Part shown: positions 19,401-58,416 of the stretch, piece after piece
Position numbering within the stretch: the stretch's first letter is position 1
How the letters are laid out: every line of letters starts with the position of its first letter
Source: Meloidogyne chitwoodi
Taxonomy: Eukaryota > Nematoda > Chromadorea > Rhabditida > Meloidogynidae
Assembly (NCBI GenBank): GCA_015183035.1
Contig: JACZZP010000011.1
Location: 2,046,001 to 2,110,000 of the forward strand
Direction: 5' to 3'
DNA: 64,000 nt
Translations under genes and position numbers: made by a program
The notes under the pieces: model-generated
What the model saw: only the letters and a program-made list of their open reading frames with translations
Databases searched by the model: none
Told to the model about the DNA's origin: nothing

Positions 19401-22400
19401 TTTCTTCTGATTCTCGTCTCTTCTTTAAAATTTCTTCACTGTCTTTTTTCCTCTTTTCATCTTCATCTTTCTTGGAATCATCCTGTTTCCTCAAAGGCTC
19501 TTCTTTCTTATCCTTTAATTTTTTCTCTTCTTCATCTTTCTTCCGTTTTGCTAACAACTCTTCTCTTCTCTTTTTTGCTTCATTTTCCTTTTTCTGTTTC
19601 TTTTCTTCCTCTTTAAGTTTCTTTTGTTCAGCTAATTTTCTGGCCTTTTCTTGCTCTTCTTCCATTTTTCTTTTCATTAATGAAGTTGGTTCTTTCTTCT
19701 TAGCGTCATCCAACTTTGACGTTTCTACCTCTAACGCCTCTTTAGGTATTAGCTCAGGTTTTTCTTCTTCTTTCTTTTTGATTTTTGTCTGGTCATCTTT
19801 TACAGATTTTGGTCTTTCTTCCTCTTCCAATACATATTTTTTCACACTTGTATCAATTTCTTTTTGTTCTTCCAAAGCTTTCCTCCTTGCTGCGTCAGCC
19901 TCTTCTTTTGCCTTATCTTCAGCTAATTTTTTCTCTTCAATTGATTTTTTACGTTTTTCCTCATCTTCTATCTTCCTTTTCTTTTCATCTTCTTCCTTTT
20001 TCAAAGCGGACTCTTTTCTCTTTCTTACCAATTCATCCATTTTAGATTTTGCTTCATCAGCCTCAGACTTTGATTTTTCCTCTGCTTCACGTCTTTTTCG
20101 TAATGTTTCTTCTCTATCTTTTTTCTTCTTTTCATCTTTCTTGGAATCATCCAGTTTCCTTAAAGGCTCTTCTTTCTTATCCTTGAATTTTTTCTCTTCT
20201 TCCTCTTTCTTCTTTTTAGCTAACAACTCTTCTCTCCTCTTTTTTGTTTCATCCTCTTTTCTGTTTTTCTCTTCCTCCTCTTTAAGTTTCTTTTGTTCAG
20301 CTAATTTTCTGGCTTTTTCTTGTTCTTCTTCCATTTTTCTCTTCATTGATGAGATTGGCTCTTTCTTTTTAGTTTCAATTTCCTCTTTTGAATCATCTAC
20401 TTTTGCTAATTTTGTAGGCATTGCTTCAGATTTTTCTTCTTCTTTATCTGTAATTTTTAGTTGGTCATCTTTAACTCTCTTTGGCCTCTCTTCCTCATCT
20501 AATAACAATTTTTTAACTGTTGTATCAACCTCCTTTTGCTTTTCCATAGCTTTTTTCCTTGCGGCTTCAGCCTCATCTTTAGCTCTCTGTTCTGCTAATT
20601 TTTTCTCTTCTAAAGATTTTTTTCGTTTTTCTTCTTCTTCTGCCTTCCTTTTCTTTTCATCTTCTTCCTTTTTTAATGCTGACTCTTTCCTTTTCTTTGC
20701 TAATTCGTCCATTTTAGCTTTTGCTTCATTAGCTTCCAACTTTGATTTTTCTTCCGCTTCTCGTCTTTTCCTTAATGTTTCATCTCTGTCTTTTTTCCTC
20801 TTATCATCTTCAACTTTTTTAACATCATCTATTTTGGGTTCTTCTTTCACATCTTTAAATTTGTTCTCTTCATCATCTTTCTTCTTTGTTGCTAACAACT
20901 CTTCTCTTCTCTTTTTTGCTTCATTTTCTTTTTTATCTTTTTCTTCCTCTTCCTTTTGTTTCTTCTTTTCAGCTAATTTTCTGGCTCTTTCTTGTTCTTC
21001 TTCCATTTTTCTCTTCATTGATGAAGTTGGTTCATTCTTCTTTTCTCTAATTTCCTTCTCTGCATCATCTACTTTTGCTAATTTTGTAGGCATTGTTTCA
21101 GGTTTTTCTTCTTCGGCTTCATTCTTTTTCTTAGAATCATCTATCTTTTTCTCCTCCTCTATGGGTTTCTTTTCATTATCAAATTTCTTAGCTTCATCTT
21201 TTTTCTCTTCAATTTTATTTAATTCTTTATTTAATTCATATTTTGGAGATTTTTCTCCAAAAGTTGTTAGTTCTGCTTCACTTTTTTCCTCAATATTTTT
21301 TCCAACTTTTTCTGAATCTTTTTCAATTAATCTTTCTAACGGCTCCTCTTCTTTCCTCTCCCTTTCGGGAACATCAATTTCTATTTCAGTTCCCAAAAAT
21401 ACCTCAACTTTCTTCAAATCCTTAAGTAACTCAGGCAAAGATTTTCCCTCTGGATGTATTTCATCTAACATTTCAAAAGATGATTTTTGTGCCTTTTTTA
21501 GACGAGAAGTCTTTGCTTCCGTTTCATCCAAATCATCTGGGACTTCTTTTTCCTTTTCTTCTATTTCTTGGGAGAATTTAACTTTTTGCTTTTCTTCTGG
21601 TTTTTCAGAAATTAATTGTTTAATTTCTTTATCATTTTTATCTTCTAATATTAATTTATCTTCAACCTTCTCTTTTGTATCAACTACTTGTGGTAGTATT
21701 TCTGTAATTGTTTCAGGTTTTTCTTCTTCTTTCTCTTTAATTTTTGTTTTGTCATCTTTAACACTCTTTGGTCTTTCTTCCTCTTCCAATACATATTTCT
21801 TAACTGTTGTATCAATTTCTTTTTGTTCTTCTAAAGCCTTTTTTCTTGCTGCTTCAGCCTCTTCTTTTGCATTATCTTCTGCTAATTTTTTCTCCTCAAT
21901 TGATTTTTTTCGGTTTTCTTCTTGTTCAGCCTTAAGTTTCTTTTCATCTTCTTCCTTTTTTAATGATGACTCTTTCCTTTTCTTTGCCAATTCATCCATT
22001 TTAGCTTTTGCTTCATTAGTTTCCAACTTTGATTTTTCTTCTGCTTCACGTCTTTTTCGTAATGTTTCTTCTCTGTCTTTTTTCCTCTTTTCATCTTCAT
22101 CTTTCTTGGAATCATCCTGTTTCCTTAAAGGCTCTTCTTTCTTATCCTTTAATTTTTTCTCTTCCTCCTCTCTCTTCTTTTTTGCTAACAACTCTTCTTT
22201 TCTCTTTTTTGCTTCATTTTCTTTCTTCTGTTTCTCTTCGTTCTCTTTAAGTTTCTTTTCTTCAGCTAATTTCTTAGCTTTTTCCTGTTCTTCTTCCATT
22301 TTCTTCTTCTGTAGAGAAGTTGGCTCTTTCTTCTTTTCTTCAATTACTGTCTCAGCACTAACTACTTCTGCTTGTTTTGTAGGCCTTTCCTCCTTTAAAA

Positions 22401-25400
22401 TGATAAAATATTTAAAAAAATTTTTTAATTTTAATAGTTTAAAAAAACCTCTACTTCTTTTACAGTCGGTGAAACTTTTACAGAAGGATCGCCATATAAA
22501 GAATTTATTTCCTGAAGAAGAAAAATTAAAAAATTATTTTATATTTAAACCTTTGGTATAAACAAAGCACTCGGTATTTTCTTTTTCTTTTTTTCCTCAT
22601 CTTTCTTTTCTGGAACTTTCGGAGAAGGCTCTTTTTCTTCTTGTTGGATTTTAGGTTGTTCTGCTATAAAAAATATTTGTTGTATTTTGTTTTATTTGTA
22701 AAAAAATAATTTTATTAAATAAAAATTTTATTTTGGCATTTTAATGTTAGTTACAAAAATTATAATAATTAAAAAACATAAAATAAATAGTAAAATCATA
22801 AAAACTTCAAAACATTACTTAAAAAAACTTAAAAGCATACAAAAACATCTATAAATATAAAAACACAAAAACAAATAATAAAAGTAAAAACACTTTAATA
22901 AACCTAAAAAACATAAAAAACACAAAACAACACCTTTAACAACAATTTGTTTGTTTAAAGACAAAACATTTAAAACAACATGCTTGCTAATTATTTCACC
23001 AAAAACATTGATTGCTTGAAGAACAATAATATCTCCACTTTCTATTTGATTAATTAAGCGTTTTAGTAAAAGTGATACTCCAATTTTGTTTTGTTCGATT
23101 CTATTGAGTTTGAACTGTAAAAAATAATTAGTAAACACTCCCTCTTAAATAAAATACCTTTCTCCACGGCACAATAATATTTGAATTTCCACTTTTTTCA
23201 ATCCACATTTCTATATGAGGTAAAGGATCTCCTTCAATTACAAAATTTAATTGTTCATTCCCATTTAAATTTAATTCCAAAAGTTCAGACGGGGTTTTCA
23301 CAATTTTTGGGCATTTTTGAACAATTGGGCTTTCTGCTTCAACATTAACTATTTTAATTTCTTTTATTAATTTATTAATATTTAATGCTTCAGTTTGTGA
23401 AGTTGATTCTTCTTCTTTTAATTTTAATGTAATCTTTGCCTTGTCAAAGCCTTGTTCATTGTTAGCAATAAAAATATAATCTCCAATTTGTTCAACGTCA
23501 AATTTGGGGAATATTAGCATTATTCCCCAACAATCACCATTACAATCTACAAGAAATCGACATTTGTTTGGGTCATCTTCTAAATGCATGTCATTATGGT
23601 AAATTGACATCTGAAAATTTAAATAATTTTTTAAAATTCAAAAACACCAAACCTTAGGCTCTACAGCTGATTCAAGTTCCAAATGAACAAATAAACGTTT
23701 ATCTAATTCTCCTATGATAATTCTCTCTTTTGTTAAAAACTTGGGAGGAGAAATTACGGTAGAATAATATTCAACATTTTCTTCTCCTTCTCCAAAACTT
23801 GAATACAAACTTGGCGATGAAATACAAAATTCTTTTTTTGTATTTTCAAGATTAAACTTAACAGACTTTTTATTTGTTAAAGGACATTTTTCTTCAACTG
23901 CATCAATTCTTTTTTTCATAATTTTTTCATCAAATTCAAAAATTGTAACATTTGGGGGTGGAAGCACTTTTAAAGGTTTAGCACTGTCATATTCAAAGTT
24001 TCTTGATAGCAAAAATACTTCAATTTCTTCTTCTTCTGTTAAATTGTTTTTTAATGTTTCTGATAAATTTGCTAGTGAAGCTTGGCTAAGATTAGATGAT
24101 TCAGAAGAATTTTGTGGGGAATTCTTATTTTTTGCTTCATATTTGGTTTTCTCGTTTTTTCCAGGCTTACAAAATTCTTTTGTTTCCAATTTTTTAATTT
24201 CTATTGATTTATCTAACTCTACTTCACTTACGTTAAATTTTGTTTCAATTTTAATCTTCTGAAGAGTTGCTTCAAATAATTTTGAATTTGTTTCAGTTTC
24301 GTCTTTTTTCTGTAAGATAGTTTCAATTTCCTTATGTTCAAGTTTTGCTTCATATTTTGACATTTCTTCATTTTTCTGTATAAGTTGAACTGCTTCATTA
24401 TGATGCTTTTGAATATTTGCTTCATATTTAGATAAAAATTGATTAGTCTCCGCTTCTTCGAGTTCAAGCAACTCCGCTTCGTATTCATCTACTTTTTGTA
24501 GCAAAGTTTCTATATCATGATGTTTTTTAAGTATTGTTTCATATTCAGATTTATGTAGCAAAGTTTGTGTATCTGCTTCAAATTCAGGTTCATCGAAATT
24601 TTGCAATACTGATAGATCATCTTTTGCTTCATTTTTAGAATCTGCTTCAGATTTAATTTTTATTGGCAATTTTGCTACAATTTTAGAATTTGCTTCAGAT
24701 TTAATTTTTATTGGTATTTTTACTTCAATTTTGGCTACTAATTTAGTTTTTTTGTTAATTGATAAAGATTTCAGAGCTGATTTAGTATTAATTGATTCTG
24801 ATTTAGTTTCTTTAATGTTAAATACTGAGTTTTTTATTTTAGTTTCAGCTCTTGTTATATTTAATTTATTTGCTTTTTCTGAATTAGTATCTTCTGGTTT
24901 TATTCTTTTATGTTTAAAATTGGCTCTCGTTTCAATCGCTTTTGGTATTCTTGTTTCAGATTTAGATATATTTGCTTCCAATTTTAGTTCATCATTTTTA
25001 GTAATAGAATCAGATTTAGTTGCTTTTGACATTTTTGCTTCAGAATGTTTCTCGCGTAATTTTGCTACAGATTTAACATTTGCTTCAGATTTAATTTTTG
25101 CTACAGATTCAATTTTTTCTTGAGATTTAACATTTGCTTCAGATTTAATTCTTGCTTCGCATCTAATATTTGCTTCACATTTTTTTCCCTGTAATTTTGC
25201 TTCAATTCTTGAAGTTTCTTCAGATTTAGTTGCTTCAATTTTAGAAAAATACTTTTTCTCCAAATTTTGTTCAGTAACTTGCTTCTTTAATGATGGCTGA
25301 TTTGTATCTATATTATTTTTTACATCTTCTTCATTTTTACCTTCACAAAATGATTGAAAAACATTTTCATAAGCAAAATTTGTTGATTTAATATTTTGTA

Positions 25401-28400
25401 AATAATTTTTAATTATATCCAAATCACTCGTATTTTTTGTATTTTCTTCTTTCACATTTACTATTTTTGTTTCCACACACTCAACTGATTGTTCCTTTCC
25501 AATAAATAAATTTTCTGTAAAAATTTCATTTTGAATTATTTTGGAAGGTTCTGAACGTCGTTTAGATTTCATTAAACCTAAAAATATTATTTTAATAAAT
25601 TTATTTGAATAAATTAATTTAAAAATAACCAATCTGCAACTTCTTTTTTTAAACAATTAACCTATAAAATGAACCGCCATTTAATTAATTATTGTTAGTA
25701 AAAACAGCAATAATTGTAAATATTAGATAACAAAAATAAGGTTAGAAAAAATAAAATTAATTAAATTAAATATATTTTTGCTAAAATTAACTTTTTAAAT
25801 TTATGATATTTTTCAAAAATTAATTTGAACATTTTATAAATTAACTTACCCCCTTTAGCAATTTCAACATCAAAAACATCAAGTGAAGCATCTAAAAATA
25901 TTTTTTTATTATATAAAAAAACAAAAATAAAATAATAAATATATTTTTGGGAAGGTATTGACTTGCTTCTTTTATTTTTTGTTTGCTCAAGTTTTCAAGT
26001 CTAAGCTTTTTTAACAAAAGAGATTTTTCTTAAGTTGATAAATTTAAGATTGTACTTGTTATACATATGTTTGTGTTTACACAAAATAATTGTAAAAGCT
26101 AATTGATTTATTGGATATTAACTTTTAAATTGAGGGTAATTGCTAATATATTTGTATAAAAAAAGAAAATGCTTAATAAATTGGATATTTTAGTAAATAA
26201 GCTTTTAAAAAGGGATTTAAATATAAAATATTTTAAAAATTTTGGCATTCTGTTTTCTATATATTCTAGAATTTTTTAAGTTTTTCAAGTTTAAGTTTAC
26301 CAATAAAAAAATTAAATATTTAATTATTCCTACATTTTCCTTCTTCTGCAAAAACTTTTTCAATAGGCTCTTTTGACAAACTAATGCTTTCAGAAATGTC
26401 CTAAAATAATTATAAATAAATATTGAAATCTTTAGCAAGTTAAAATTAAATTTAATAAAATATTAAAAATTAATAAAAATTAAATAATTTTAAGAACCTT
26501 AAAATTAGGTGAAACGGGCAAAACAGTTTCAATTCTATCTTCTTGCTTCAAATCTTCCAAAATTACATCAACATCCATAAAGTCTTCTTCTGCTGGATGT
26601 ATTGATGTTTCACTTTCTGCATACTCAATTTGCTCCAATTCAATTATTCCATCAGTGCTAGAAGCTTCCTCACCTGCTTCAATGTCTACGTCAACATTAA
26701 GGTATTGTGTACCTATTAAATTATTTTTTAAATAAATTAAAAGAAAACTCGCTCAGAATTTGAATTTTTAACAAAAAATTAGGATACTCCCACCTATGGT
26801 TTTTAATAAATTAACAAATTTTTATTGAAGCAAATCGATAATTTAAAAAGTAAAATCTTTTAAAAATACCTTTTGGACTTTTATTTCTACTAATATTGTT
26901 GACGTCAAGTTGTGATGGAATTTGAATATTTAATTCATCAATAGCCTTAATCTTCTCCTCTATTTTCTCAGAAATGTCTTCATTTTTAACCTTCTTTTTC
27001 TTTATTTTTCTTTGTCTCTTTTCTTGAGGTTCTTCAAGTTCTTCAGAAATTAATTTAGGCTTTAGAACAGATTCGGCCAGATCAATTGAAGCAGAATTAA
27101 AATCAGAATAATAAAATGCTAATTCACTATATTCTTCTTGGGGATAATTTATTAAATGTTCTTCCTTTTCAATTTCATTTATTTTCATATCAGAATTGAA
27201 GCAAACACCAATACCTATTCTTTCTGTCTTTAATTTCTTCTGACGAATAATTCTGTTAATTTCAGCAAAAGAATCTTGGTCATAATCTTCTTTGCAGAGA
27301 AGACATCCAAGAGGGAATTCAGAAAGTAGATGAAGAGGAGTAAGCGATAAATCAAGATCTATAGATGATGATCTGCTAAATAACTTTTTTCTAGCATCCT
27401 CTAATTTTTTTTTCTCATGTTTCTTTTTAGAGGCCATTTCATCATCTTTCTTTTTAGCGGGTATTTCTTCAATTTTCTTTTTAGCGGCCAATTCATCATC
27501 CTTTTTAGCGGCCAATTCATCATCCTTCTTTTTAGCGGCCAATTCATCAATTTTCTTTTTAGCGGCCAATTCATCATCCTTCTTTTTAGCGGCCAATTCA
27601 TCATCCTTCTTTTTAGCGGCCAATTCATCAATTTTCTTTTTAGCGGCCAATTCATCATCTTTCTTTTTAGCGGCCAATTCATCAATTTTCTTTTTAGCGG
27701 CCAATTCATCATCTTTCTTTTTAGCGGCCAATTCATCAATTTTCTTTTTAGCGGCCAATTCATCATCCTTCTTTTTAGCGGCCAATTCATCATCCTTCTT
27801 TTTAGCGGCCAATTCATCATCCTTCTTTTTAGCGGCCAATTCATCATCCTTCTTTTTAGCGGCCAATTCATCATCCTTCTTTTTAGCGGCCAATTCATCA
27901 TCCTTCTTTTTAGCGGCCAATTCATCATCCTTCTTTTTAGCGGCCAATTCATCATCCTTCTTTTTAGCGGCCAATTCATCAATTTTCTTTTTAGCTGCCA
28001 ATTCATCAATTTTCTTTTTAGCGGCCAATTCATCATCTTTCTTTTTAGCGGCCAATTCATCATCCTTCTTTTTAGCGGCCAATTCATCAATTTTCTTTTT
28101 AGCGGCCAATTCATCATCCTTCTTTTTAGCGGCCAATTCATCATCCTTCTTTTTAGCGGCCAATTCATCAATTTTCTTTTTAGCGGCCAATTCATCATCT
28201 TTCTTTTTAGCGGCCAATTCATCAATTTTCTTTTTAGCGGCCAATTCATCATCTTTCTTTTTAGCGGCCAATTCATCAATTTTCTTTTTAGCGGCCAATT
28301 CATCATCCTTCTTTTTAGCGGCCAATTCATCATCCTTCTTTTTAGCGGCCAATTCATCATCCTTCTTTTTAGCGGCCAATTCATCATCCTTCTTTTTAGC

Positions 28401-31400
28401 GGCCAATTCATCATCCTTCTTTTTAGCGGCCAATTCATCAATTTTCTTTTTAGCTGCCAATTCATCAATTTTCTTTTTAGCGGCCAATTCATCATCTTTC
28501 TTTTTAGCGGCCAATTCATCATCCTTTTTAGCGGCCAATTCATCATCCTTCTTTTTAGCGGGTATTTCTTCAATTTTCTTTTTAGCGGCCAATTCATCAT
28601 CCTTCTTTTTAGCGGCCAATTCATCATCCTTCTTTTTAGCGGCCAATTCATCAATTTTCTTTTTAGCGGCCAATTCATCATCTTTCTTTTTAGCGGCCAA
28701 TTCATCAATTTTCTTTTTAGCGGCCAATTCATCATCTTTCTTTTTAGCGGCCAATTCATCAATTTTCTTTTTAGCGGCCAATTCATCATCCTTCTTTTTA
28801 GCGGCCAATTCATCATCCTTCTTTTTAGCGGCCAATTCATCATCCTTCTTTTTAGCTGCCAATTCATCAATTTTCTTTTTAGCGGCCAATTCATCATCTT
28901 TCTTTTTAGCGGCCAATTCATCATCCTTTTTAGCGGCCAATTCATCATCCTTCTTTTTAGCGGGTATTTCTTCAATTTTCTTTTTAGCGGCCAATTCATC
29001 ATCTTTCTTTTTAGCGGCCAATTCATCATCCTTCTTTTTAGCGGCCAATTCATCATCCTTCTTTTTAGCGGCCAATTCATCATCCTTCTTTTTAGCGGCC
29101 AATTCATCATCCTTCTTTTTAGCGGCCAATTCATCAATTTTCTTTTTAGCTGCCAATTCATCAATTTTCTTTTTAGCGGCCAATTCATCATCCTTCTTTT
29201 TAGCGGGTATTTCTTCAATTTTCTTTTTAGCGGCCAATTCATCATCTTTCTTTTTAGCGGCCAATTCATCAATTTTCTTTTTAGCGGCCAATTCATCATC
29301 TTTCTTTTTAGCGGCCAATTCATCATCCTTCTTTTTAGCGGCCAATTCATCATCCTTCTTTTTAGCGGCCAATTCATCAATTTTCTTTTTAGCTGCCAAT
29401 TCATCAATTTTCTTTTTAGCGGCCAATTCATCATCCTTCTTTTTAGCGGCCAATTCATCAATTTTCTTTTTAGCGGCCAATTCATCATCCTTCTTTTTAG
29501 CGGCCAATTCATCATCCTTCTTTTTAGCGGCCAATTCATCATCCTTCTTTTTAGCGGCCAATTCATCATCCTTCTTTTTAGCGGCCAATTCATCATCCTT
29601 CTTTTTAGCGGCCAATTCATCATCCTTCTTTTTAGCGGCCAATTCATCAATTTTCTTTTTAGCGGCCAATTCATCATCTTTCTTTTTAGCGGCCAATTCA
29701 TCAATTTTCTTTTTAGCGGCCAATTCATCATCTTTCTTTTTAGCGGCCAATTCATCAATTTTCTTTTTAGCGGCCAATTCATCATCCTTCTTTTTAGCGG
29801 CCAATTCATCATCCTTCTTTTTAGCGGCCAATTCATCATCCTTCTTTTTAGCGGCCAATTCATCATCCTTCTTTTTAGCGGCCAATTCATCATCCTTCTT
29901 TTTAGCGGCCAATTCATCAATTTTCTTTTTAGCTGCCAATTCATCAATTTTCTTTTTAGCGGCCAATTCATCATCTTTCTTTTTAGCGGCCAATTCATCA
30001 TCCTTTTTAGCGGCCAATTCATCAATTTTCTTTTTAGCGGGTATTTCTTCAATTTTCTTTTTAGCGGCCAATTCATCATCCTTCTTTTTAGCGGGTATTT
30101 CTTCAATTTTCTTTTTAGCGGCCAATTCATCTTTCTTTTTAGCGGCCAATTCATCAATTTTCTTTTTAGCGGGTATTTCTTCAATTTTCTTTTTAGCGGC
30201 CAATTCATCATCCTTCTTTTTAGCGGGTATTTCTTCAATTTTCTTTTTAGCTGCCATTTCATCATCTTTCTTTTTAGCGGGTATTTCTTCAATTTTCTTT
30301 TTAGCGGCCAATTCATCAATTTTCTTTTTAGCGGGTATTTCTTCAATTTTCTTTTTAGCGGCCAATTCATCATCCTTCTTTTTAGCGGGTATTTCTTCAA
30401 TTTTCTTTTTAGCTGCCATTTCATCATCTTTCTTTTTAGCGGGTATTTCTTCAATTTTCTTTTTAGCGGCCAATTCATCATCCTTCTTTTTAGCGGCCAA
30501 TTCATCATCCTTCTTTTTAGCGGCCAATTCATCATCCTTCTTTTTAGCGGCCAATTCATCAATTTTCTTTTTAGCTGCCAATTCATCAATTTTCTTTTTA
30601 GCGGCCAATTCATCATCTTTCTTTTTAGCGGCCAATTCATCATCCTTTTTAGCGGCCAATTCATCAATTTTCTTTTTAGCGGGTATTTCTTCAATTTTCT
30701 TTTTAGCGGCCAATTCATCATCCTTCTTTTTAGCGGGTATTTCTTCAATTTTCTTTTTAGCGGCCAATTCATCATCCTTTTTAGCGGCCAATTCATCATC
30801 CTTCTTTTTAGCGGCCAATTCATCAATTTTCTTTTTAGCGGCCAATTCATCATCCTTCTTTTTAGCGGCCAATTCATCATCCTTCTTTTTAGCGGCCAAT
30901 TCATCAATTTTCTTTTTAGCTGCCAATTCATCAATTTTCTTTTTAGCGGCCAATTCATCATCTTTCTTTTTAGCGGCCAATTCATCATCCTTTTTAGCGG
31001 CCAATTCATCAATTTTCTTTTTAGCGGCCAATTCATCATCCTTCTTTTTAGCGGCCAATTCATCATCCTTCTTTTTAGCGGCCAATTCATCATCCTTCTT
31101 TTTAGCGGCCAATTCATCATCCTTCTTTTTAGCGGCCAATTCATCATCCTTCTTTTTAGCGGCCAATTCATCATCCTTCTTTTTAGCGGCCAATTCATCA
31201 ATTTTCTTTTTAGCTGCCAATTCATCAATTTTCTTTTTAGCGGCCAATTCATCATCTTTCTTTTTAGCGGCCAATTCATCATCCTTTTTAGCGGCCAATT
31301 CATCAATTTTCTTTTTAGCGGGTATTTCTTCAATTTTCTTTTTAGCGGCCAATTCATCATCCTTCTTTTTAGCGGGTATTTCTTCAATTTTCTTTTTAGC

Positions 31401-34400
31401 GGCCAATTCATCATCTTTCTTTTTAGCGGCCAATTCATCAATTTTCTTTTTAGCGGCCAATTCATCATCTTTCTTTTTAGCGGCCAATTCATCATCCTTC
31501 TTTTTAGTGGCCAATTCATCAATTTTCTTTTTAGCGGCCAATTCATCATCCTTCTTTTTAGCGGCCAATTCATCATCCTTCTTTTTAGCGGCCAATTCAT
31601 CAATTTTCTTTTTAGCGGCCAATTCATCATCTTTCTTTTTAGCGGCCAATTCATCAATTTTCTTTTTAGCGGCCAATTCATCATCTTTCTTTTTAGCGGC
31701 CAATTCATCAATTTTCTTTTTAGCGGCCAATTCATCATCCTTCTTTTTAGCGGCCAATTCATCATCCTTCTTTTTAGCGGCCAATTCATCATCCTTCTTT
31801 TTAGCGGCCAATTCATCATCCTTCTTTTTAGCGGCCAATTCATCATCCTTCTTTTTAGCGGCCAATTCATCAATTTTCTTTTTAGCTGCCAATTCATCAA
31901 TTTTCTTTTTAGCGGCCAATTCATCATCTTTCTTTTTAGCGGCCAATTCATCATCCTTTTTAGCGGCCAATTCATCAATTTTCTTTTTAGCGGGTATTTC
32001 TTCAATTTTCTTTTTAGCGGCCAATTCATCATCCTTCTTTTTAGCGGGTATTTCTTCAATTTTCTTTTTAGCGGCCAATTCATCTTTCTTTTTAGCGGCC
32101 AATTCATCAATTTTCTTTTTAGCGGGTATTTCTTCAATTTTCTTTTTAGCGGCCAATTCATCATCCTTCTTTTTAGCGGGTATTTCTTCAATTTTCTTTT
32201 TAGCTGCCATTTCATCATCTTTCTTTTTAGCGGGTATTTCTTCAATTTTCTTTTTAGCGGCCAATTCATCATCCTTCTTTTTAGCGGGTATTTCTTCAAT
32301 TTTCTTTTTAGCGGCCAATTCATCATCCTTTTTAGCGGCCAATTCATCATCCTTCTTTTTAGCGGCCAATTCATCAATTTTCTTTTTAGCGGCCAATTCA
32401 TCATCCTTCTTTTTAGCGGCCAATTCATCAATTTTCTTTTTAGCGGCCATTTCTTCATCTTTCATTTTAGCGGCCAATTCATCAATTTTCTTTTTAGCGG
32501 GTATTTCTTCAATTTTCTTTTTAGCGGCCAATTCATCATCCTTCTTTTTAGCGGGTATTTCTTCAATTTTCTTTTTAGCGGCCATTTCATCATCTTTCTT
32601 TTTAGCGGGTATTTCTTCAATTTTCTTTTTAGCGGCCAATTCATCATCCTTCTTTTTAGCGGGTATTTCTTCAATTTTCTTTTTAGCGGCCAATTCATCA
32701 CCCTTTTTAGCGGCCAATTCATCATCCTTCTTTTTAGCGGCCAATTCATCAATTTTCTTTTTAGCGGCCAATTCATCATCCTTCTTTTTAGCGGCCAATT
32801 CATCAATTTTCTTTTTAGCGGGTATTTCTTCAATTTTCTTTTTAGCGGCCATTTCTTCATCTTTCTTTTTAGCGGCCAATTCATCAATTTTCTTTTTAGC
32901 GGGTATTTCTTCAATTTTCTTTTTAGCGGCCAATTCATCATCCTTCTTTTTAGCGGGTATTTCTTCAATTTTCTTTTTAGCGGCCAATTCATCATCCTTT
33001 TTAGCGGCCAATTCATCATCCTTCTTTTTAGCGGCCAATTCATCAATTTTCTTTTTAGCGGCCAATTCATCATCCTTCTTTTTAGCGGCCAATTCATCAA
33101 TTTTCTTTTTAGCTGCCAATCCATCAATTTTCTTTTTAGCGGCCAATTCATCAATTTTCTTTTTAGCGGCCAATTCATCATCCTTCTTTTTAGCGGCCAA
33201 TTCATCAATTTTCTTTTTAGCGGGTATTTCTTCAATTTTCTTTTTAGCGGCCAATTCATCATCCTTCTTTTTAGCGGGTATTTCTTCAATTTTCTTTTTA
33301 GCGGCCATTTCTTCATCTTTCTTTTTAGCGGCCAATTCATCAATTTTATTTTTAGCGGGTATTTCTTCAATTTTCTTTTTAGCGGCCAATTCATCATCCT
33401 TCTTTTTAGCGGGTATTTCTTCAATTTTCTTTTTAGCGGCCAATTCATCAATTTTCTTTTTAGCGGCCAATTCATCATCTTTCTTTTTAGCGGCCAATTC
33501 ATCAATTTTCTTTTTAGCGGCCAATTCATCATCCTTCTTTTTAGCGGCCAATTCATCAATTTTCTTTTTAGCGGGTATTTCTTCAATTTTCTTTTTAGCG
33601 GCCAATTCATCATCCTTCTTTTTAGTGGCCAATTCATCAATTTTCTTTTTAGCGGCCAATTCATCATCCTTCTTTTTAGCGGCCAATTCATCATCCTTCT
33701 TTTTAGCGGCCAATTCATCATCCTTCTTTTTAGCGGCCAATTCATCATCCTTCTTTTTAGCGGCCAATTCATCATCCTTCTTTTTAGCGGCCAATTCATC
33801 ATCCTTCTTTTTAGCGGGTATTTCTTCAATTTTCTTTTTAGTGGCCAATTCATCATCCTTCTTTTTAGCGGCCAATTCATCAATTTTCTTTTTAGCGGCC
33901 AATTCATCATCCTTCTTTTTAGCGGCAAATTCATCATCTTTCTTTTTAGCGGCCAATTCATCATCCTTCTTTTTAGCGGCCAATTCATCATCCTTCTTTT
34001 TAGCGGCCAATTCATCATCCTTCTTTTTAGCGGCCAATTCATCAATTTTCTTTTTAGCGGCCAATTCATCATCTTTCTTTTTAGCGGCCAATTCATCATC
34101 CTTCTTTTTAGCGGCCAATTCATCATCCTTCTTTTTAGCGGCCAATTCATCATCCTTCTTTTTAGCGGCCAATTCATCATCCTTCTTTTTAGCGGCCAAT
34201 TCATCATCCTTCTTTTTAGCGGCCAATTCATCATCCTTCTTTTTAGCGGCCAATTCATCAATTTTCTTTTTAGCTGCCAATTCATCAATTTTCTTTTTAG
34301 CGGCCAATTCATCATCTTTCTTTTTAGCGGCCAATTCATCATCCTTTTTAGCGGCCAATTCATCAATTTTCTTTTTAGCGGGTATTTCTTCAATTTTCTT

Positions 34401-37400
34401 TTTAGCGGCCAATTCATCATCCTTCTTTTTAGCGGGTATTTCTTCAATTTTCTTTTTAGCGGCCAATTCATCATCTTTCTTTTTAGCTGCCAATTCATCA
34501 ATTTTCTTTTTAGCGGCCAATTCATCATCTTTCTTTTTAGCGGCCAATTCATCATCCTTTTTAGCGGCCAATTCATCAATTTTCTTTTTAGCGGCCAATT
34601 CATCATCCTTCTTTTTAGCGGCCAATTCATCATCCTTCTTTTTAGCGGCCAATTCATCATCCTTCTTTTTAGCGGCCAATTCATCATCCTTCTTTTTAGC
34701 GGCCAATTCATCATCCTTCTTTTTAGCGGCCAATTCATCATCCTTCTTTTTAGCGGCCAATTCATCAATTTTCTTTTTAGCTGCCAATTCATCAATTTTC
34801 TTTTTAGCGGCCAATTCATCATCTTTCTTTTTAGCGGCCAATTCATCATCCTTTTTAGCGGCCAATTCATCAATTTTCTTTTTAGCGGGTATTTCTTCAA
34901 TTTTCTTTTTAGCGGCCAATTCATCATCCTTCTTTTTAGCGGGTATTTCTTCAATTTTCTTTTTAGCGGCCAATTCATCATCTTTCTTTTTAGCGGCCAA
35001 TTCATCAATTTTCTTTTTAGCGGCCAATTCATCATCTTTCTTTTTAGCGGCCAATTCATCATCCTTCTTTTTAGTGGCCAATTCATCAATTTTCTTTTTA
35101 GCGGCCAATTCATCATCCTTCTTTTTAGCGGCCAATTCATCATCCTTCTTTTTAGCGGCCAATTCATCAATTTTCTTTTTAGCGGCCAATTCATCATCTT
35201 TCTTTTTAGCGGCCAATTCATCAATTTTCTTTTTAGCGGCCAATTCATCATCTTTCTTTTTAGCGGCCAATTCATCAATTTTCTTTTTAGCGGCCAATTC
35301 ATCATCCTTCTTTTTAGCGGCCAATTCATCATCCTTCTTTTTAGCGGCCAATTCATCATCCTTCTTTTTAGCGGCCAATTCATCATCCTTCTTTTTAGCG
35401 GCCAATTCATCATCCTTCTTTTTAGCGGCCAATTCATCAATTTTCTTTTTAGCTGCCAATTCATCAATTTTCTTTTTAGCGGCCAATTCATCATCTTTCT
35501 TTTTAGCGGCCAATTCATCATCCTTTTTAGCGGCCAATTCATCAATTTTCTTTTTAGCGGGTATTTCTTCAATTTTCTTTTTAGCGGCCAATTCATCATC
35601 CTTCTTTTTAGCGGGTATTTCTTCAATTTTCTTTTTAGCGGCCAATTCATCTTTCTTTTTAGCGGCCAATTCATCAATTTTCTTTTTAGCGGGTATTTCT
35701 TCAATTTTCTTTTTAGCGGCCAATTCATCAATTTTCTTTTTAGCGGGTATTTCTTCAATTTTCTTTTTAGCGGCCAATTCATCATCCTTCTTTTTAGCGG
35801 CCAATTCATCATCCTTCTTTTTAGCGGCCAATTCATCATCCTTCTTTTTAGTGGCCAATTCATCAATTTTCTTTTTAGCGGCCAATTCATCATCCTTCTT
35901 TTTAGCGGCCAATTCATCATCCTTCTTTTTAGTGGCCAATTCATCAATTTTCTTTTTAGCGGCCAATTCATCATCCTTCTTTTTAGCGGCCAATTCATCA
36001 TCCTTCTTTTTAGCGGCCAATTCATCAATTTTCTTTTTAGCTGCCAATTCATCAATTTTCTTTTTAGCGGCCAATTCATCAATTTTCTTTTTAGCGGCAA
36101 TTTCTTCATCTTTCTTTTTAGCGGCCAATTCATCATCCTTCTTTTTAGCGGCCAATTCATCTTCTTTCTTTTTAGCGGCCAATTCATCATCCTTCTTTTT
36201 AGTGGCCAATTCATCAATTTTCTTTTTAGCGGCCAATTCATCATCCTTCTTTTTAGCGGCCAATTCATCATCCTTTTTAGCGGCCAATTCATCATCCTTC
36301 TTTTTAGCGGCCAATTCATCTTCTTTCTTTTTAGCGGCCAATTCATCAATTTTCTTTTTAGCGGCCAATTCATCATCCTTCTTTTTAGCGGCCAATTCAT
36401 CTTCTTTCTTTTTAGCGGCCAATTCATCATCCTTCTTTTTAGTGGCCAATTCATCAATTTTCTTTTTAGCGGCCAATTCATCATCCTTCTTTTTAGCGGC
36501 CAATTCATCATCCTTCTTTTTAGCGGCCATTTCTTCATCTTTCTTTTTAGCGGGTATTTCTTCAATTTTCTTTTTAGCGGCCAATTCATCAATTTTCTTT
36601 TTAGCGGCAATTTCTTCATCTTTCTTTTTAGCGGCCAATTCATCATCCTTCTTTTTAGCGGCCAATTCATCTTCTTTCTTTTTAGCGGCCAATTCATCAT
36701 CCTTCTTTTTAGCGGCCAATTCATCATCCTTCTTTTTAGCGGCCATTTCTTCATCTTTCTTTTTAGCGGGTATTTCTTCAATTTTCTTTTTAGCGGCCAA
36801 TTCATCAATTTTCTTTTTAGCGGCAATTTCTTCATCTTTCTTTTTAGCGGCCAATTCATCATCCTTCTTTTTAGCGGCCAATTCATCTTCTTTCTTTTTA
36901 GCGGCCAATTCATCAATTTTCTTTTTAGCGGCCAATTCATCATCCTTCTTTTTAGCAGCCAATTCATCATCCTTCTTTTTAGCGGCCAATTCATCAATTT
37001 TCTTTTTAGCGGCCAATTCATCATCCTTCTTTTTAGCGGCCAATTCATCTTCTTTCTTTTTAGCGGCCAATTCATCAATTTTCTTTTTAGCGGCCAATTC
37101 ATCATCCTTCTTTTTAGCGGCCAATTCATCATCCTTCTTTTTAGCGGCCAATTCATCAATTTTCTTTTTAGCGGGTATTTCTTCAATTTTCTTTTTAGCG
37201 GCCAATTCATCAATTTTCTTTTTAGCGGCCAATTCATCATCCTTCTTTTTAGTGGCCAATTCATCAATTTTCTTTTTAGCGGCCAATTCATCATCCTTCT
37301 TTTTAGCGGCCAATTCATCATCCTTCTTTTTAGCGGCCATTTCTTCATCTTTCTTTTTAGCGGGTATTTCTTCAATTTTCTTTTTAGCGGCCAATTCATC

Positions 37401-40400
37401 AATTTTCTTTTTAGCGGCAATTTCTTCATCTTTCTTTTTAGCGGCCAATTCATCATCCTTCTTTTTAGCGGCCAATTCATCATCCTTCTTTTTAGCGGCC
37501 ATTTCTTCATCTTTCTTTTTAGCGGGTATTTCTTCAATTTTCTTTTTAGCGGCCAATTCATCAATTTTCTTTTTAGCGGCAATTTCTTCATCTTTCTTTT
37601 TAGCGGCCAATTCATCATCCTTCTTTTTAGCGGCCAATTCATCTTCTTTCTTTTTAGCGGCCAATTCATCAATTTTCTTTTTAGCGGCCAATTCATCATC
37701 CTTCTTTTTAGCAGCCAATTCATCATCCTTCTTTTTAGCGGCCAATTCATCAATTTTCTTTTTAGCGGCCAATTCATCATCCTTCTTTTTAGCGGCCAAT
37801 TCATCTTCTTTCTTTTTAGCGGCCAATTCATCAATTTTCTTTTTAGCGGCCAATTCATCATCCTTCTTTTTAGCGGCCAATTCATCATCCTTCTTTTTAG
37901 CGGCCAATTCATCAATTTTCTTTTTAGCGGGTATTTCTTCAATTTTCTTTTTAGCGGCCAATTCATCAATTTTCTTTTTAGCGGCAATTTCTTCATCTTT
38001 CTTTTTAGCGGCCAATTCATCATCCTTCTTTTTAGCGGCCAATTCATCATCCTTCTTTTTAGCGGCCAATTCATCATCCTTCTTTTTAGTGGCCAATTCA
38101 TCAATTTTCTTTTTAGCGGCCAATTCATCATCCTTCTTTTTAGCGGCCAATTCATCATCCTTCTTTTTAGTGGCCAATTCATCAATTTTCTTTTTAGCGG
38201 CCAATTCATCATCCTTCTTTTTAGCGGCCAATTCATCATCCTTCTTTTTAGCGGCCAATTCATCAATTTTCTTTTTAGCTGCCAATTCATCAATTTTCTT
38301 TTTAGCGGCCAATTCATCATCTTTCTTTTTAGCGGCCAATTCATCAATTTTCTTTTTAGCGGCCAATTCATCATCCTTCTTTTTAGTGGCCAATTCATCA
38401 ATTTTCTTTTTAGCGGCCAATTCATCATCCTTCTTTTTAGCGGCCAATTCATCATCCTTCTTTTTAGCGGGTATTTCTTCAATTTTCTTTTTAGCGGCCA
38501 ATTCATCTTCTTTCTTTTTAGCGGCCATTTCTTCATCTTTCTTTTTAGCGGCCAATTCATCATCCTTCTTTTTAGCGGCCAATTCATCTTCTTTCTTTTT
38601 AGCGGCCAATTCATCAATTTTCTTTTTAGCGGCCAATTCATCATCCTTCTTTTTAGCGGCCATTTCTTCATCTTTCTTTTTAGCGGGTATTTCTTCAATT
38701 TTCTTTTTAGCGGCCAATTCATCAATTTTCTTTTTAGCGGCAATTTCTTCATCTTTCTTTTTAGCGGCCAATTCATCATCCTTCTTTTTAGCGGCCAATT
38801 CATCTTCTTTCTTTTTAGCGGCCAATTCATCATCCTTCTTTTTAGTGGCCAATTCATCAATTTTCTTTTTAGCGGCCAATTCATCATCCTTCTTTTTAGC
38901 GGCCAATTCATCATCCTTCTTTTTAGCGGCCATTTCTTCATCTTTCTTTTTAGCGGGTATTTCTTCAATTTTCTTTTTAGCGGCCAATTCATCAATTTTC
39001 TTTTTAGCGGCAATTTCTTCATCTTTCTTTTTAGCGGCCAATTCATCATCCTTCTTTTTAGCGGCCAATTCATCTTCTTTCTTTTTAGCGGCCAATTCAT
39101 CAATTTTCTTTTTAGCGGCCAATTCATCATCCTTCTTTTTAGCAGCCAATTCATCATCCTTCTTTTTAGCGGCCAATTCATCAATTTTCTTTTTAGCGGC
39201 CAATTCATCATCCTTCTTTTTAGCGGCCAATTCATCATCCTTCTTTTTAGCGGCCAATTCATCAATTTTCTTTTTAGCGGGTATTTCTTCAATTTTCTTT
39301 TTAGCGGCCAATTCATCAATTTTCTTTTTAGCGGCAATTTCTTCATCTTTCTTTTTAGCGGCCAATTCATCATCCTTCTTTTTAGCGGCCAATTCATCTT
39401 CTTTCTTTTTAGCGGCCAATTCATCATCCTTCTTTTTAGTGGCCAATTCATCAATTTTCTTTTTAGCGGCCAATTCATCATCCTTCTTTTTAGCGGCCAA
39501 TTCATCATCCTTCTTTTTAGCGGCCAATTCATCATCCTTCTTTTTAGTGGCCAATTCATCAATTTTCTTTTTAGCGGGTATTTCTTCAATTTTCTTTTTA
39601 GCGGCCAATTCATCATCCTTCTTTTTAGCGGCCAATTCATCATCCTTCTTTTTAGCGGCCAATTCATCAATTTTCTTTTTAGCGGGTATTTCTTCAATTT
39701 TCTTTTTAGCGGCCAATTCATCAATTTTCTTTTTAGCGGCAATTTCTTCATCTTTCTTTTTAGCGGCCAATTCATCATCCTTCTTTTTAGCGGCCATTTC
39801 TTCATCTTTCTTTTTAGCGGGTATTTCTTCAATTTTCTTTTTAGCGGCCAATTCATCAATTTTCTTTTTAGCGGCAATTTCTTCATCTTTCTTTTTAGCG
39901 GCCAATTCATCATCCTTCTTTTTAGCGGCCAATTCATCTTCTTTCTTTTTAGCGGCCAATTCATCTTCTTTCTTTTTAGCGGCCAATTCATCATCCTTCT
40001 TTTTAGTGGCCAATTCATCAATTTTCTTTTTAGCGGCCAATTCATCATCCTTCTTTTTAGCGGCCAATTCATCATCCTTCTTTTTAGCGGCCAATTCATC
40101 ATCCTTCTTTTTAGTGGCCAATTCATCAATTTTCTTTTTAGCGGGTATTTCTTCAATTTTCTTTTTAGCGGCCAATTCATCATCCTTCTTTTTAGCGGCC
40201 AATTCATCATCCTTCTTTTTAGCGGCCAATTCATCAATTTTCTTTTTAGCGGGTATTTCTTCAATTTTCTTTTTAGCGGCCAATTCATCAATTTTCTTTT
40301 TAGCGGCAATTTCTTCATCTTTCTTTTTAGCGGCCAATTCATCATCCTTCTTTTTAGCGGCCAATTCATCTTCTTTCTTTTTAGCGGCCAATTCATCATC

Positions 40401-43400
40401 CTTCTTTTTAGTGGCCAATTCATCAATTTTCTTTTTAGCGGCCAATTCATCATCCTTCTTTTTAGCGGCCAATTCATCATCCTTCTTTTTAGCGGCCAAT
40501 TCATCATCCTTCTTTTTAGTGGCCAATTCATCAATTTTCTTTTTAGCGGCCAATTCATCATCCTTCTTTTTAGCGGCCAATTCATCATCCTTCTTTTTAG
40601 CGGCCAATTCATCAATTTTCTTTTTAGCGGGTATTTCTTCAATTTTCTTTTTAGCGGCCAATTCATCATCCTTCTTTTTAGCGGCCAATTCATCATCCTT
40701 CTTTTTAGCGGCCAATTCATCAATTTTCTTTTTAGCGGGTATTTCTTCAATTTTCTTTTTAGCGGCCAATTCATCAATTTTCTTTTTAGCGGCAATTTCT
40801 TCATCTTTCTTTTTAGCGGCCAATTCATCATCCTTCTTTTTAGCGGCCAATTCATCTTCTTTCTTTTTAGCAGCCAATTCATCATCCTTCTTTTTAGTGG
40901 CCAATTCATCAATTTTCTTTTTAGCGGCAATTTCTTCATCTTTCTTTTTAGCGGCCAATTCATCATCCTTCTTTTTAGCGGCAATTTCTTCATCTTTCTT
41001 TTTAGCGGCCAATTCATCATCCTTCTTTTTAGCGGCCAATTCATCTTCTTTCTTTTTAGCGGCCAATTCATCATCCTTCTTTTTAGTGGCCAATTCATCA
41101 ATTTTCTTTTTAGCGGCCAATTCATCATCCTTCTTTTTAGCGGCCAATTCATCATCCTTCTTTTTAGCGGCCAATTCATCATCCTTCTTTTTAGTGGCCA
41201 ATTCATCAATTTTCTTTTTAGCGGCCAATTCATCATCCTTCTTTTTAGCGGCCAATTCATCATCCTTCTTTTTAGCGGCCAATTCATCAATTTTCTTTTT
41301 AGCGGGTATTTCTTCAATTTTCTTTTTAGCGGCCAATTCATCATCCTTCTTTTTAGCGGCCAATTCATCATCCTTCTTTTTAGCGGCCAATTCATCAATT
41401 TTCTTTTTAGCGGGTATTTCTTCAATTTTCTTTTTAGCGGCCAATTCATCAATTTTCTTTTTAGCGGCAATTTCTTCATCTTTCTTTTTAGCGGCCAATT
41501 CATCATCCTTCTTTTTAACGGCCAATTCATCTTCTTTCTTTTTAGCAGCCAATTCATCATCCTTCTTTTTAGTGGCCAATTCATCAATTTTCTTTTTAGC
41601 GGCAATTTCTTCATCTTTCTTTTTAGCGGCCAATTCATCATCCTTCTTTTTAGCGGCCAATTCATCTTCTTTCTTTTTAGCGGCCAATTCATCAATTTTC
41701 TTTTTAGCGGCCAATTCATCATCCTTCTTTTTAGCAGCCAATTCATCATCCTTCTTTTTAGCGGCCAATTCATCAATTTTCTTTTTAGCGGCCAATTCAT
41801 CATCCTTCTTTTTAGCGGCCAATTCATCATCCTTCTTTTTAGCGGCCAATTCATCAATTTTCTTTTTAGCGGGTATTTCTTCAATTTTCTTTTTAGCGGC
41901 CAATTCATCAATTTTCTTTTTAGCGGCAATTTCTTCATCTTTCTTTTTAGCGGCCAATTCATCATCCTTCTTTTTAGCGGCCAATTCATCTTCTTTCTTT
42001 TTAGCGGCCAATTCATCATCCTTCTTTTTAGTGGCCAATTCATCAATTTTCTTTTTAGCGGCCAATTCATCATCCTTCTTTTTAGCGGCCAATTCATCAT
42101 CCTTCTTTTTAGCGGCCAATTCATCATCCTTCTTTTTAGTGGCCAATTCATCAATTTTCTTTTTAGCGGCCAATTCATCATCCTTCTTTTTAGCGGCCAA
42201 TTCATCATCCTTCTTTTTAGCGGCCAATTCATCAATTTTCTTTTTAGCGGGTATTTCTTCAATTTTCTTTTTAGCGGCCAATTCATCAATTTTCTTTTTA
42301 GCGGCAATTTCTTCATCTTTCTTTTTAGCGGCCAATTCATCATCCTTCTTTTTAGCGGCCAATTCATCTTCTTTCTTTTTAGCGGCCAATTCATCATCCT
42401 TCTTTTTAGTGGCCAATTCATCAATTTTCTTTTTAGCGGCCAATTCATCATCCTTCTTTTTAGCGGCCAATTCATCATCCTTCTTTTTAGCGGCCAATTC
42501 ATCATCCTTCTTTTTAGTGGCCAATTCATCAATTTTCTTTTTAGCGGCCAATTCATCATCCTTCTTTTTAGCGGCCAATTCATCATCCTTCTTTTTAGTA
42601 GCCAATTCATCAATTTTCTTTTTAGCGGCCAATTCATCATCCTTCTTTTTAGCGGCCAATTCATCTTCTTTCTTTTTAGCGGCCAATTCATCAATTTTCT
42701 TTTTAGCGGCCAATTCATCATCCTTCTTTTTAGCAGCCAATTCATCATCCTTCTTTTTAGCGGCCAATTCATCAATTTTCTTTTTAGCGGCCAATTCATC
42801 ATCCTTCTTTTTAGCGGCCAATTCATCTTCTTTCTTTTTAGCGGCCAATTCATCAATTTTCTTTTTAGCGGCCAATTCATCATCCTTCTTTTTAGCGGCC
42901 AATTCATCATCCTTCTTTTTAGCGGCCAATTCATCAATTTTCTTTTTAGCGGGTATTTCTTCAATTTTCTTTTTAGCGGCCAATTCATCAATTTTCTTTT
43001 TAGCGGCAATTTCTTCATCTTTCTTTTTAGCGGCCAATTCATCATCCTTCTTTTTAGCGGCCAATTCATCTTCTTTCTTTTTAGCGGCCAATTCATCATC
43101 CTTCTTTTTAGTGGCCAATTCATCAATTTTCTTTTTAGCGGCCAATTCATCATCCTTCTTTTTAGCGGCCAATTCATCATCCTTCTTTTTAGCGGCCAAT
43201 TCATCATCCTTCTTTTTAGTGGCCAATTCATCAATTTTCTTTTTAGCGGCCAATTCATCATCCTTCTTTTTAGCGGCCAATTCATCATCCTTCTTTTTAG
43301 CGGCCAATTCATCAATTTTCTTTTTAGCTGCCAATTCATCAATTTTATTTTTAGCGGCCAATTCATCATCTTTCTTTTTAGCGGCCAATTCATCAATTTT

Positions 43401-46400
43401 CTTTTTAGCGGCCAATTCATCATCCTTCTTTTTAGTGGCCAATTCATCAATTTTCTTTTTAGCGGCCAATTCATCATCCTTCTTTTTAGCGGCCAATTCA
43501 TCATCCTTCTTTTTAGCGGGTATTTCTTCAATTTTCTTTTTAGCGGCCAATTCATCTTCTTTCTTTTTAGCGGCCATTTCTTCATCTTTCTTTTTAGCGG
43601 GTATTTCTTCAATTTTCTTTTTAGCGGCCAATTCATCAATTTTCTTTTTAGCGGCAATTTCTTCATCTTTCTTTTTAGCGGCCAATTCATCATCCTTCTT
43701 TTTAGCGGCCAATTCATCTTCTTTCTTTTTAGCGGCCAATTCATCAATTTTCTTTTTAGCGGCCAATTCATCATCCTTCTTTTTAGCAGCCAATTCATCA
43801 TCCTTCTTTTTAGCGGCCAATTCATCAATTTTCTTTTTAGCGGCCAATTCATCATCCTTCTTTTTAGCGGCCAATTCATCATCCTTCTTTTTAGCGGCCA
43901 ATTCATCAATTTTCTTTTTAGCGGCCAATTCATCATCCTTCTTTTTAGCGGCCAATTCATCATCCTTCTTTTTAGTGGCCAATTCATCAATTTTCTTTTT
44001 AGCGGCCAATTCATCATCCTTCTTTTTAGCGGCCAATTCATCATCCTTCTTTTTAGCGGCCAATTCATCATCCTTCTTTTTAGCGGCCAATTCATCATCC
44101 TTCTTTTTAGCGGCCAATTCATCAATTTTCTTTTTAGCGTCCATTTCATCATCCTTCTTTTTAGCGGCCATTTCTTCATCCTTCTGTTTAGCGGCCAATT
44201 CATCATCTTTCTTTTTAGCGGCCATTTCATCATCTTTCTTTTTAGCGGCCAATTCATCATCTTTCTTCGTAGAATCAGCATCAACCTTTTTCTTTACTAT
44301 AATTATATCTCCATTGCTTATTATTTTTTCAACGTATTCAAACGTTTCATATAAATATATTTCAAGCATATCTGTTGTTTCATAATTTATCTCAACTTCA
44401 AGTGTGAATTCATTTATCATTTCTGATTTATCTTTTTCATCAATTATTTCTTTTATACTTTCTTTGCTAACTTCTTTAATTTTTTCAGAAATTACCTCTT
44501 CAAATGACTCATACAAATTAACATCTAAAACATCGACATCCTCAAAATTAATATCTACTCTCAAATTGACCTCTTCTGCTTCAAATGTTACAGATTTCTT
44601 AATTTTTTTTTTCTCACTTTTTTCTATTTTATATTCTTTTATATTTATTTCTAAAGTCTCTTTGATTGCTTCCAACACACCAATCTCAATATGTGCTTCA
44701 GAATCAATCTTTTTACATGAAACGTGTATATCTGCTTCACTTTCACACATTTCATCTAAATTTTTTAATTATTTCATTAGCAAAATTTTTTTAAATTACA
44801 CGATTCAGTAGTTACTTTGCATTCAGTTGTTGCTCTCCCATACTCATTTATTCCTTCACAACTGTATGAAGCTTCATCGTAAATATTTAAGTTTAAAATG
44901 GTCAGGCGTGTTTTTCCACTTGACATTTCGGTGTCGATTTGATACTTACTTAAATTTATTAAAATAAGTTTATTTTTATTTTAAGTTTGTAATCTTAGAA
45001 AAAAGGAACTTAAAAACTTACTCATCATTTACTTAAATTTAATAAAATAAACTTAATAAAAGTTAAGTTTGTAATCTTAAAAAAAGTTGAAATTAACTTA
45101 CTCATCATTCCCAACTAAAATAGAAGCATTCTTTTTCCATATCAAACGATTTGCTCCAACACATGTGGCGAACAGAGTTATACTTTGTCCTTCCTAAATA
45201 TTAAATTTATTACTTTTTCCTAATTTTTTGAGTAATTTTATTATTTTTTTTACAAAACCAAATTTTTTACTTAAATTAAAAAACAAACATTTAAATACAA
45301 ACTCGGCGCTAATGAAACTATAAAAAATGGCGGAATGCCATTATACATGTTTGGACGTGTTATTGTTGTTGGACGATTACCACGTCTTTCATCTAACCTT
45401 TCCAACACTGTTGAGAGACTTTCACGGGACAGTCTTCTCTCAACTGCTGAAACATTCGAAGTGGTTGGCTTTTGATGTTTTTTGCGGCCATATCTTGCAG
45501 AATAAAATGTTTTTAGAGAATGTTCTGCACCCTCAGGTTGAGGCTTATCTATTGCATTTAGGACAAATTCAGCATTAATTTCAGTATTCCCTTTAATTTA
45601 TTTTTTAATTTTCAAAATTTTTTTACCTAATACACGAATTGTACCACTTTTACATTTATTCATTCCTGCACTAGAACGGAGTCCACAACTTATTTCTTTT
45701 CCATCCCAAGACATCGGTACCTTTTGTGCAACCAAGTATGTTGTACAATCATCCACAATGCAATCAACAAAACTAATTTTTTAAATTAATTTTAATACTC
45801 AATTTTAATATCACACAGTACCTATTTTCCGATATTAGCTCATTTCCAATCCACCAAGTAACCGTTGGAATTGGAGTTCCTTTGAATACACATTTATGTA
45901 ATACCTGACGCTCTCCCTCTAGAAGCTCAATTGGTTCAGAAGGTAATTTCTCCAAAAACTCAGGCTTTTCGTAGGAACTACTAATATTTGAAATTGGTTT
46001 TTTGTCATCACTTTCCACTAAAAAAATAAAAATTAAGTTCAGTCTTCAAATTTTCACCAAACTATTCAATCTTCTAAAAAAATGTTACACGAAATCTCAC
46101 CCTTTTCTAAAAGGAAATCTGCTACAATAACTTCTATATTCGCACATTCTGGGCTTTTATTTATTTCAAGTTTTGCGCCACAGCGTGTTGCAAATTGTAC
46201 TTGAAACAATTGTTCTAATGAAAACAAATCTGAAGTTTTCTTTTCTTGCAACAAAAGTTTAGGCTCCTCCACTCGTGGGAGGATTCTTTGCTGCATTTTT
46301 TCGCTATTATTAATTGTCGATTTTATCGGTATTTTTCTAGTTATTCCAATAGCATTAGCACAATTATACTCCTATAATATTTAATTACAAGTTTTAAGAA

Positions 46401-58349: not shown

Positions 58350-58416
58350 TTTTGGAGTAGTTTCAGTTGTTAAGCAAGAATTTCTGGATTACTTAACAAC
58401 TGAAACTACTCCAAAA

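Follow-up and report, generated by a model that had tools for sequence, protein, structure and literature searches.

The question raised by this locus of the nematode Meloidogyne chitwoodi is what a titin-like gene could do with one very long exon that consists almost entirely of a nine-residue repeat. We analysed a stretch of 64,000 nt (contig JACZZP010000011.1, positions 2,046,001 to 2,110,000; hereafter the window, whose positions serve as coordinates), in which the gene and all of its features described below lie on the minus strand. The repeat, its reading frame, the spacing of its prolines, its charge pattern and its domain context can be read directly from the sequence. Based on these features and on a structural model, we propose with moderate confidence that the array is a coding satellite whose product would be a chain of proline-hinged single-helix rods, acting as a low-force spring in the I-band.

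The array is contained in a minus-strand open reading frame (ORF) of 5,985 aa (26811..44768 in the ORF list). Within this frame, the predicted exon covers 26870..44755 (17,886 nt, or 3 x 5,962), with AATTTAG directly before base 44755 and GTATTT directly after base 26870. These splice sites were chosen by eye and then tested by joining the exons: the reading frame runs through both joins, from an upstream exon ending at 44800 (then GTAATT) and into a downstream exon starting at 26712 (after TTTAATAG). The downstream exon, 26498..26712, is followed by GTTCTT and keeps the frame. The upstream exon, 44800..44964, encodes the second half of an Ig domain with an I-set match at 44810-44947 that passes the cut-off (E 5.3e-4); 44800 is its proposed last base and the upper limit is approximate. 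Both flanking introns interrupt a codon after its first base, which makes the array exon symmetric (phase 1-1), so that it could be omitted by splicing without a frameshift, resulting in a short isoform. One frame on the exon strand is free of stops, compared to 34 and 1,809 stops in the other two. Splice signals, unit count and in-frame joins thus agree with the original prediction of one stop-free exon with about 620 repeat copies, in phase with its neighbours on both sides.

The open frame alone is weak evidence for coding, because a stop-free unit also opens other frames. Indeed, the opposite strand carries two long open frames across the array (5,683 and 5,649 aa), and on the minus strand one stop alone interrupts another frame (pieces of 3,943 and 1,686 aa). 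The exon also contains unique flanks on both sides of the repeats, an N-terminal one (44268..44755) with an internal duplicated segment and a C-terminal one (26870..27428) in which the array frame is kept. Between the two copies of the N-terminal duplication, 13 of 31 residues are identical, and the proportion of synonymous differences (pS, 0.83) exceeds that of nonsynonymous ones (pN, 0.39), the latter being biased downward as the 31-residue pair was chosen by eye for likeness. Taken together, the single frame held over 626 units, the in-frame unique flanks and the excess of pS over pN support a coding function of the exon.

Tandem Repeats Finder placed the array at 27415-44267 with a period of 27 bp, 626.4 copies, 88% matches and 0% indels. 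Divided into units, it spans 27429..44267 (16,839 bp, 5,613 aa) and consists of 605 nine-residue and 21 eight-residue units, so that every unit length is a multiple of three. The commonest unit is KKKDDELAA (297 copies), followed by KKKIDELAA (137), KKKIEEIPA (67), KKKIDELAT (31), KKKEDELAA (26), KKKDEEIAA (21) and rarer forms; the eight-residue variant is KKDDELAA. On the DNA level, only 23 distinct 27-mers were found among the 605 nine-residue units. The proline-containing units, the near-identical DNA and the eight-residue units are features beyond those of the original prediction. The order of units along the array is irregular, and a search for a higher-order repeat revealed no period that holds over its whole length: identity between units peaked at 0.293 for a lag of 25 (0.221 expected by chance), and in the second half it reached 0.383 at lag 133. 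A repeat query against the 47.5 Mb assembly gave 91 matches (best 150 of 154 candidates scored), 90 of them in this array; the remaining one was weak (18% identity, E 4.6e-5), leaving no second convincing site.

Tandem, homogenised, in-frame units are the hallmark of a coding minisatellite, and the array displays all three. It could be a neutral sequence, a flexible charged spacer that drifts in sequence and length without a specific mechanical role. Several observations are in line with this possibility, which we nevertheless regard as rather unlikely. The DNA is nearly fully homogenised, and subarrays differ in their unit alphabets: all 26 units of the KKKEDELAA DNA form and all 21 KKKDEEIAA units fall within units 0-302, and 15 of 16 copies of the main eight-residue DNA form within units 303-625. 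The longest exact internal repeat measures 1,255 bp. Units seen only once number 13, including three of the first five and the last unit, and such singletons at the edges are the pattern expected if unequal exchange homogenises the interior. Of the 11 nine-residue forms that occur once, eight could be scored, being one step from a common form; seven carry a replacing and one a silent change, close to the neutral expectation (shares of 0.73 and 0.22, respectively). Against neutrality, the 626 units hold one frame and include four 24-bp forms but no frame-shifting length, although this may reflect only about three events, since one 24-bp form is a substituted derivative of another and one lies at the array edge. 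Furthermore, the repeats of another exon of the same gene (16039-22533) are constrained: in all 21 pairs of copies, the ratio of nonsynonymous to synonymous changes (dN/dS) stays below 1 (0.14-0.51). The units of the array point to concerted evolution, and their substitutions do not demonstrate selection acting on it.

The order of charges within the unit argues against a neutral spacer as well, as it ranks in the top 2.5% of the 15,120 possible orders of its nine letters. Of the array residues, 62% are charged (net charge +220) and 15% are aliphatic or aromatic. Opposite charges at i+3/i+4 occur at 0.617 per residue, compared to a shuffled mean of 0.386 (standard deviation 0.006, 100 shuffles), and like charges at these distances at 0.000 compared to 0.388. 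This pattern, together with a single-sequence AlphaFold2 model described below, supports the original prediction that the unit forms a helical repeat.

Charge networks alone cannot separate a single helix from a coiled coil; the missing hydrophobic seam and stripe point to single helices. A seam (i, i+3 or 4, i+7) is found at 0.00018 per residue in the array versus 0.0069 in 50 shuffles, and at 0.0096 versus 0.0055 in the 16039-22533 exon. Aliphatic periodicity in the array is very low (0.0032 at 100 degrees, 0.0008 at 102.86 degrees), and its power at 80 and 120 degrees represents harmonics of the nine-residue unit. In the 16039-22533 exon, the aliphatic power peaks at 103.8 degrees, and the strongest period is 3.47 residues (heptad-like). 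A two-stranded coiled coil was therefore rejected for the array, which lacks the heptad or hendecad stripe that the other exon shows in heptad-like form. The unit length explains this finding: at 3.6 residues per turn, nine residues make 2.5 turns of helix, each unit therefore points away from the side on which its neighbour lies, and a stripe cannot accumulate.

The same geometry would place the leucines and isoleucines on two opposite faces, which might allow packing into helix sheets. In such a scenario, units would pair with each other or with partners and cross-link titin molecules in obliquely striated muscle. Forbes et al. (2010) reportedly proposed bundling of this kind for the BLUE octads in the TTN-1 protein of C. 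elegans, and ttn-1 has a short-period coding array of comparable size. The nearly absent seam, the lack of heptad or hendecad periodicity and the low aliphatic and aromatic content speak against bundling, and we consider it unlikely.

Prolines make up 1.2% of the array. All 67 are located in KKKIEEIPA units, on average one per approximately 84 residues, and they divide the array into 68 proline-free stretches with a mean of 82, a median of 48 and a maximum of 366 residues (~55 nm). We modelled one 500-residue piece (32829..34328) with AlphaFold2 on the single sequence and without an alignment, this being the sole sequence modelled. The prediction was a helix with breaks at all eight prolines plus one short further break, i.e. 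eight of the nine internal breaks hold a proline. Dense i,i+3/i+4 opposite charges and the absence of a hydrophobic seam, both typical of single alpha-helices, are found in the array, whereas uninterrupted, proline-free sequence is found in pieces of up to 366 residues and not over the whole length.

These results bear directly on the idea of a rigid helical ruler of about 0.8 μm. A fully helical array would indeed have a contour length of 842 nm. However, the original prediction of a helix throughout conflicts with the 67 interrupting KKKIEEIPA units and with the predicted break at each modelled proline, and we rejected a single rigid ruler on these two grounds. Satellite-like homogenisation, from which length variation between individuals would be expected, weakens the ruler further, leaving it extremely improbable. 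Among the roles proposed originally, a force-dependent spring fits best.

According to the spring model, rods of charged single alpha-helix would be joined at KKKIEEIPA hinges and placed between an N-terminal Ig part and a C-terminal Ig/Fn3 part of the protein. At rest, the chain would consist of jointed helical rods. When it is pulled, straightening of the hinges would come first, and the helices would then unwind at low, nearly constant force, so that the chain contour could grow from ~0.8 to ~2 μm and refold on release. The array would thus act as an I-band spring or leash instead of a stiff ruler, with a size presumably set by unequal exchange between units.

Several results weigh against this spring. 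Alternating charge triplets are denser in the 16039-22533 exon (0.56 per residue) than in the array (0.40). AlphaFold2 also placed one helix break where there is no proline, its best mean predicted local distance difference test score (pLDDT) was 71.5 with a predicted template modelling score (pTM) of 0.19, and the five models span pLDDT values from 38.1 to 71.5. In addition, AlphaFold readily draws charged low-complexity sequence as helix. Substitutions within the array gave no sign of selection, and recent single-unit changes look neutral. Protein searches covered candidates of 0.55-1.75 times the query length, and among these no relative sharing the array emerged, so that no conservation was seen. 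Finally, translation of the window outside 27300-44400 in all six frames gave no HxD catalytic-loop motif of a kinase, and neither did the 10 kb on either side. Only stray DFG triplets (three in the window and four in the flanks) were detected, and a PF00069 profile search gave no match in the window (best 123 of 536 candidates scored). In C. elegans, the kinase of TTN-1 is active (PMC12862963). The missing motif possibly reflects a loss of the kinase or a motif split by an intron.

The searches with the array protein returned few matches. When residues 986-5985 served as query, 1,008 candidates were scored and three reached E<=0.001, namely two giant mosquito proteins and an unnamed one. One mosquito protein (P0002) is named as a titin homolog and has long KKKAEEEA-type charged stretches but not the nine-residue satellite; it was rejected as a homologue, the match being compositional only. 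The other mosquito match (P0001) is an Ig-like domain protein. For a 1,000-residue query, 7,990 candidates were scored and two of them matched; these, P0004 and P0005, were dismissed as unrelated charged proteins. With the C-terminal flank (residues 5720-5985) as query, 1,946 candidates, all of them 0.55-1.75 times 5,985 aa in length, contained no match at E<=0.001, and 4,985 residues of the frame had no PDB match at this threshold. On the DNA level, there was no exact match in a prokaryote genome collection, for a query pattern that occurs 260 times in the window.

It is also conceivable that the array is unexpressed, or that the assembly gives a wrong length for it. Artefacts may indeed be present in the assembly, as shown by a perfect inverted repeat of 1,263 nt that lies about 12 kb from the exon. 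On the other hand, with a longest exact repeat of 1,255 bp, accurate long reads could probably place the array, the unit order is irregular, and flanks and splice phases are consistent. Both possibilities appear very unlikely to us.

The remaining exons support the assignment of the host gene. Genome-wide profile searches identified six I-set matches and one Fn3 match in the window, and exon-level scans agree. An I-set exon with a profile match lies on the N-terminal side (50886..51287), and Ig (I-set) exons with profile matches occupy a downstream stretch (12709..15992), including two frames at 13841-14443 without a Pfam match. The Fn3 exon is located at 11629..12141 and has titin as best PDB match (E 5.2e-49); titin likewise ranks first in the PDB for one Ig exon. 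Between the array exon and the downstream Ig exons are an open frame of 672 residues (23641..25656) and the charged open frame of 2,165 residues (16039..22533), the latter with seven copies of a ~225-residue unit. Pfam offered no family for these two frames, for the array flanks or for several short frames. Combined, these matches make the titin-like nature of the gene, as originally predicted, a sound assignment at the sequence level. Orthology to TTN-1 is likely, though not proven. Like TTN-1, the giant gene has Ig and Fn3 domains as well as short tandem-repeat and coiled-coil-like regions.

Further features were noted in and around the gene. Among the Ig exons, on the gene strand, a 310-residue open frame (8103-9032) is extremely rich in Asn, Ile and Lys and could be intronic or an insert of low complexity. 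The inverted repeat beyond the array exon occupies 57115-59651, with 1,263-nt arms that are 100% complementary and an 11-nt spacer, and is either a genuine palindrome of recent origin or an artefact of folding back during assembly. Further inverted repeats of this type are suggested by kinase matches that occur elsewhere in the assembly as pairs on opposite strands (e.g. C1:1687521/1691637 and C6:1721063/1722804). Beyond the 5' side of the gene, on the minus strand of contig positions 2110001-2120000 (offset 1988, reverse complement), a frame resembles an ETS-type DNA-binding domain by eye. An SL1 RNA profile had ten matches in the assembly (best 50 of 17,677 candidates), scoring 37.7-44.6 compared to a gathering score of 75 bits; although weak, these matches suggest a nematode.

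If the array is expressed, nature would provide in it 5,613 residues composed almost wholly of single-helix rods and hinges, with rod lengths legible in the sequence. The possibility of helical instead of disordered springs in invertebrate titins could then be tested directly, and a coding satellite, usually regarded as unstable DNA, would sit centrally in a load-bearing protein.

How does the array relate to known systems? Single alpha-helices are described as constant-force springs, which need less than 30 pN to unfold and do so at a nearly constant force (PMC4183817), and the longest ones in myosins reach ~200 residues (PMC5378345). The array resembles single alpha-helix domains such as that of myosin-10 in its high charge, its opposite charges at i+3/i+4 and its lack of a hydrophobic seam (PMC4183817, PMC5378345, PMC5812594). 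It differs from those of myosins in size, with 5,613 residues in 68 pieces between 67 prolines, and in its lysines, which come in threes. PEVK-type or disordered titin springs are likewise repetitive elastic segments between folded domains with alternative exon use, but the array has an alpha-helical charge grammar and, at its low proline content, is not polyproline-like. Among the literature matches listed, neither the nine-residue unit nor the proline punctuation nor the lack of like charges at i+3/i+4 appeared, and those for Meloidogyne together with titin and muscle contained nothing on this array.

The closest precedent comes from C. elegans. In the VC2010 nanopore assembly, ttn-1 carries coding satellites with a 24-bp unit (19,240 bp) and a 117-bp unit (14,926 bp), which had been under-assembled until long reads became available (PMC6210790). 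Like the array, the 24-bp satellite is a short-period coding array in a titin gene, with ~6,400 residues by its length; the comparison is one of size and not of sequence, eight residues and 19,240 bp in C. elegans versus nine residues and 16,839 bp here. No nine-residue array of such size was found in print, in line with the original prediction, whereas this satellite is a precedent for size and kind, so the size and placement of the array are not without parallel. We take the 24-bp satellite to be the BLUE octad region of TTN-1, whose repeats Forbes reportedly described in 2010 as unstable helices. The eight-residue period of BLUE is not matched by the array, in which 605 of 626 units have nine residues. 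A ttn-1 exon yields circular DNA (PMC5633380), as unstable tandem DNA might, and the long TTN-1 isoform spans the I-band in C. elegans (PMC9886278, citing Forbes 2010). As a tentative and still doubtful extension, the main spring of nematode titins may be a repeatedly replaced coding satellite, with unit and period varying by lineage (eight residues in C. elegans, nine here) and the helix charge grammar kept. If so, the stiffness of muscle would be tuned through turnover of the satellite and not through point mutation, with the proline unit as the punctuation that sets rod length.

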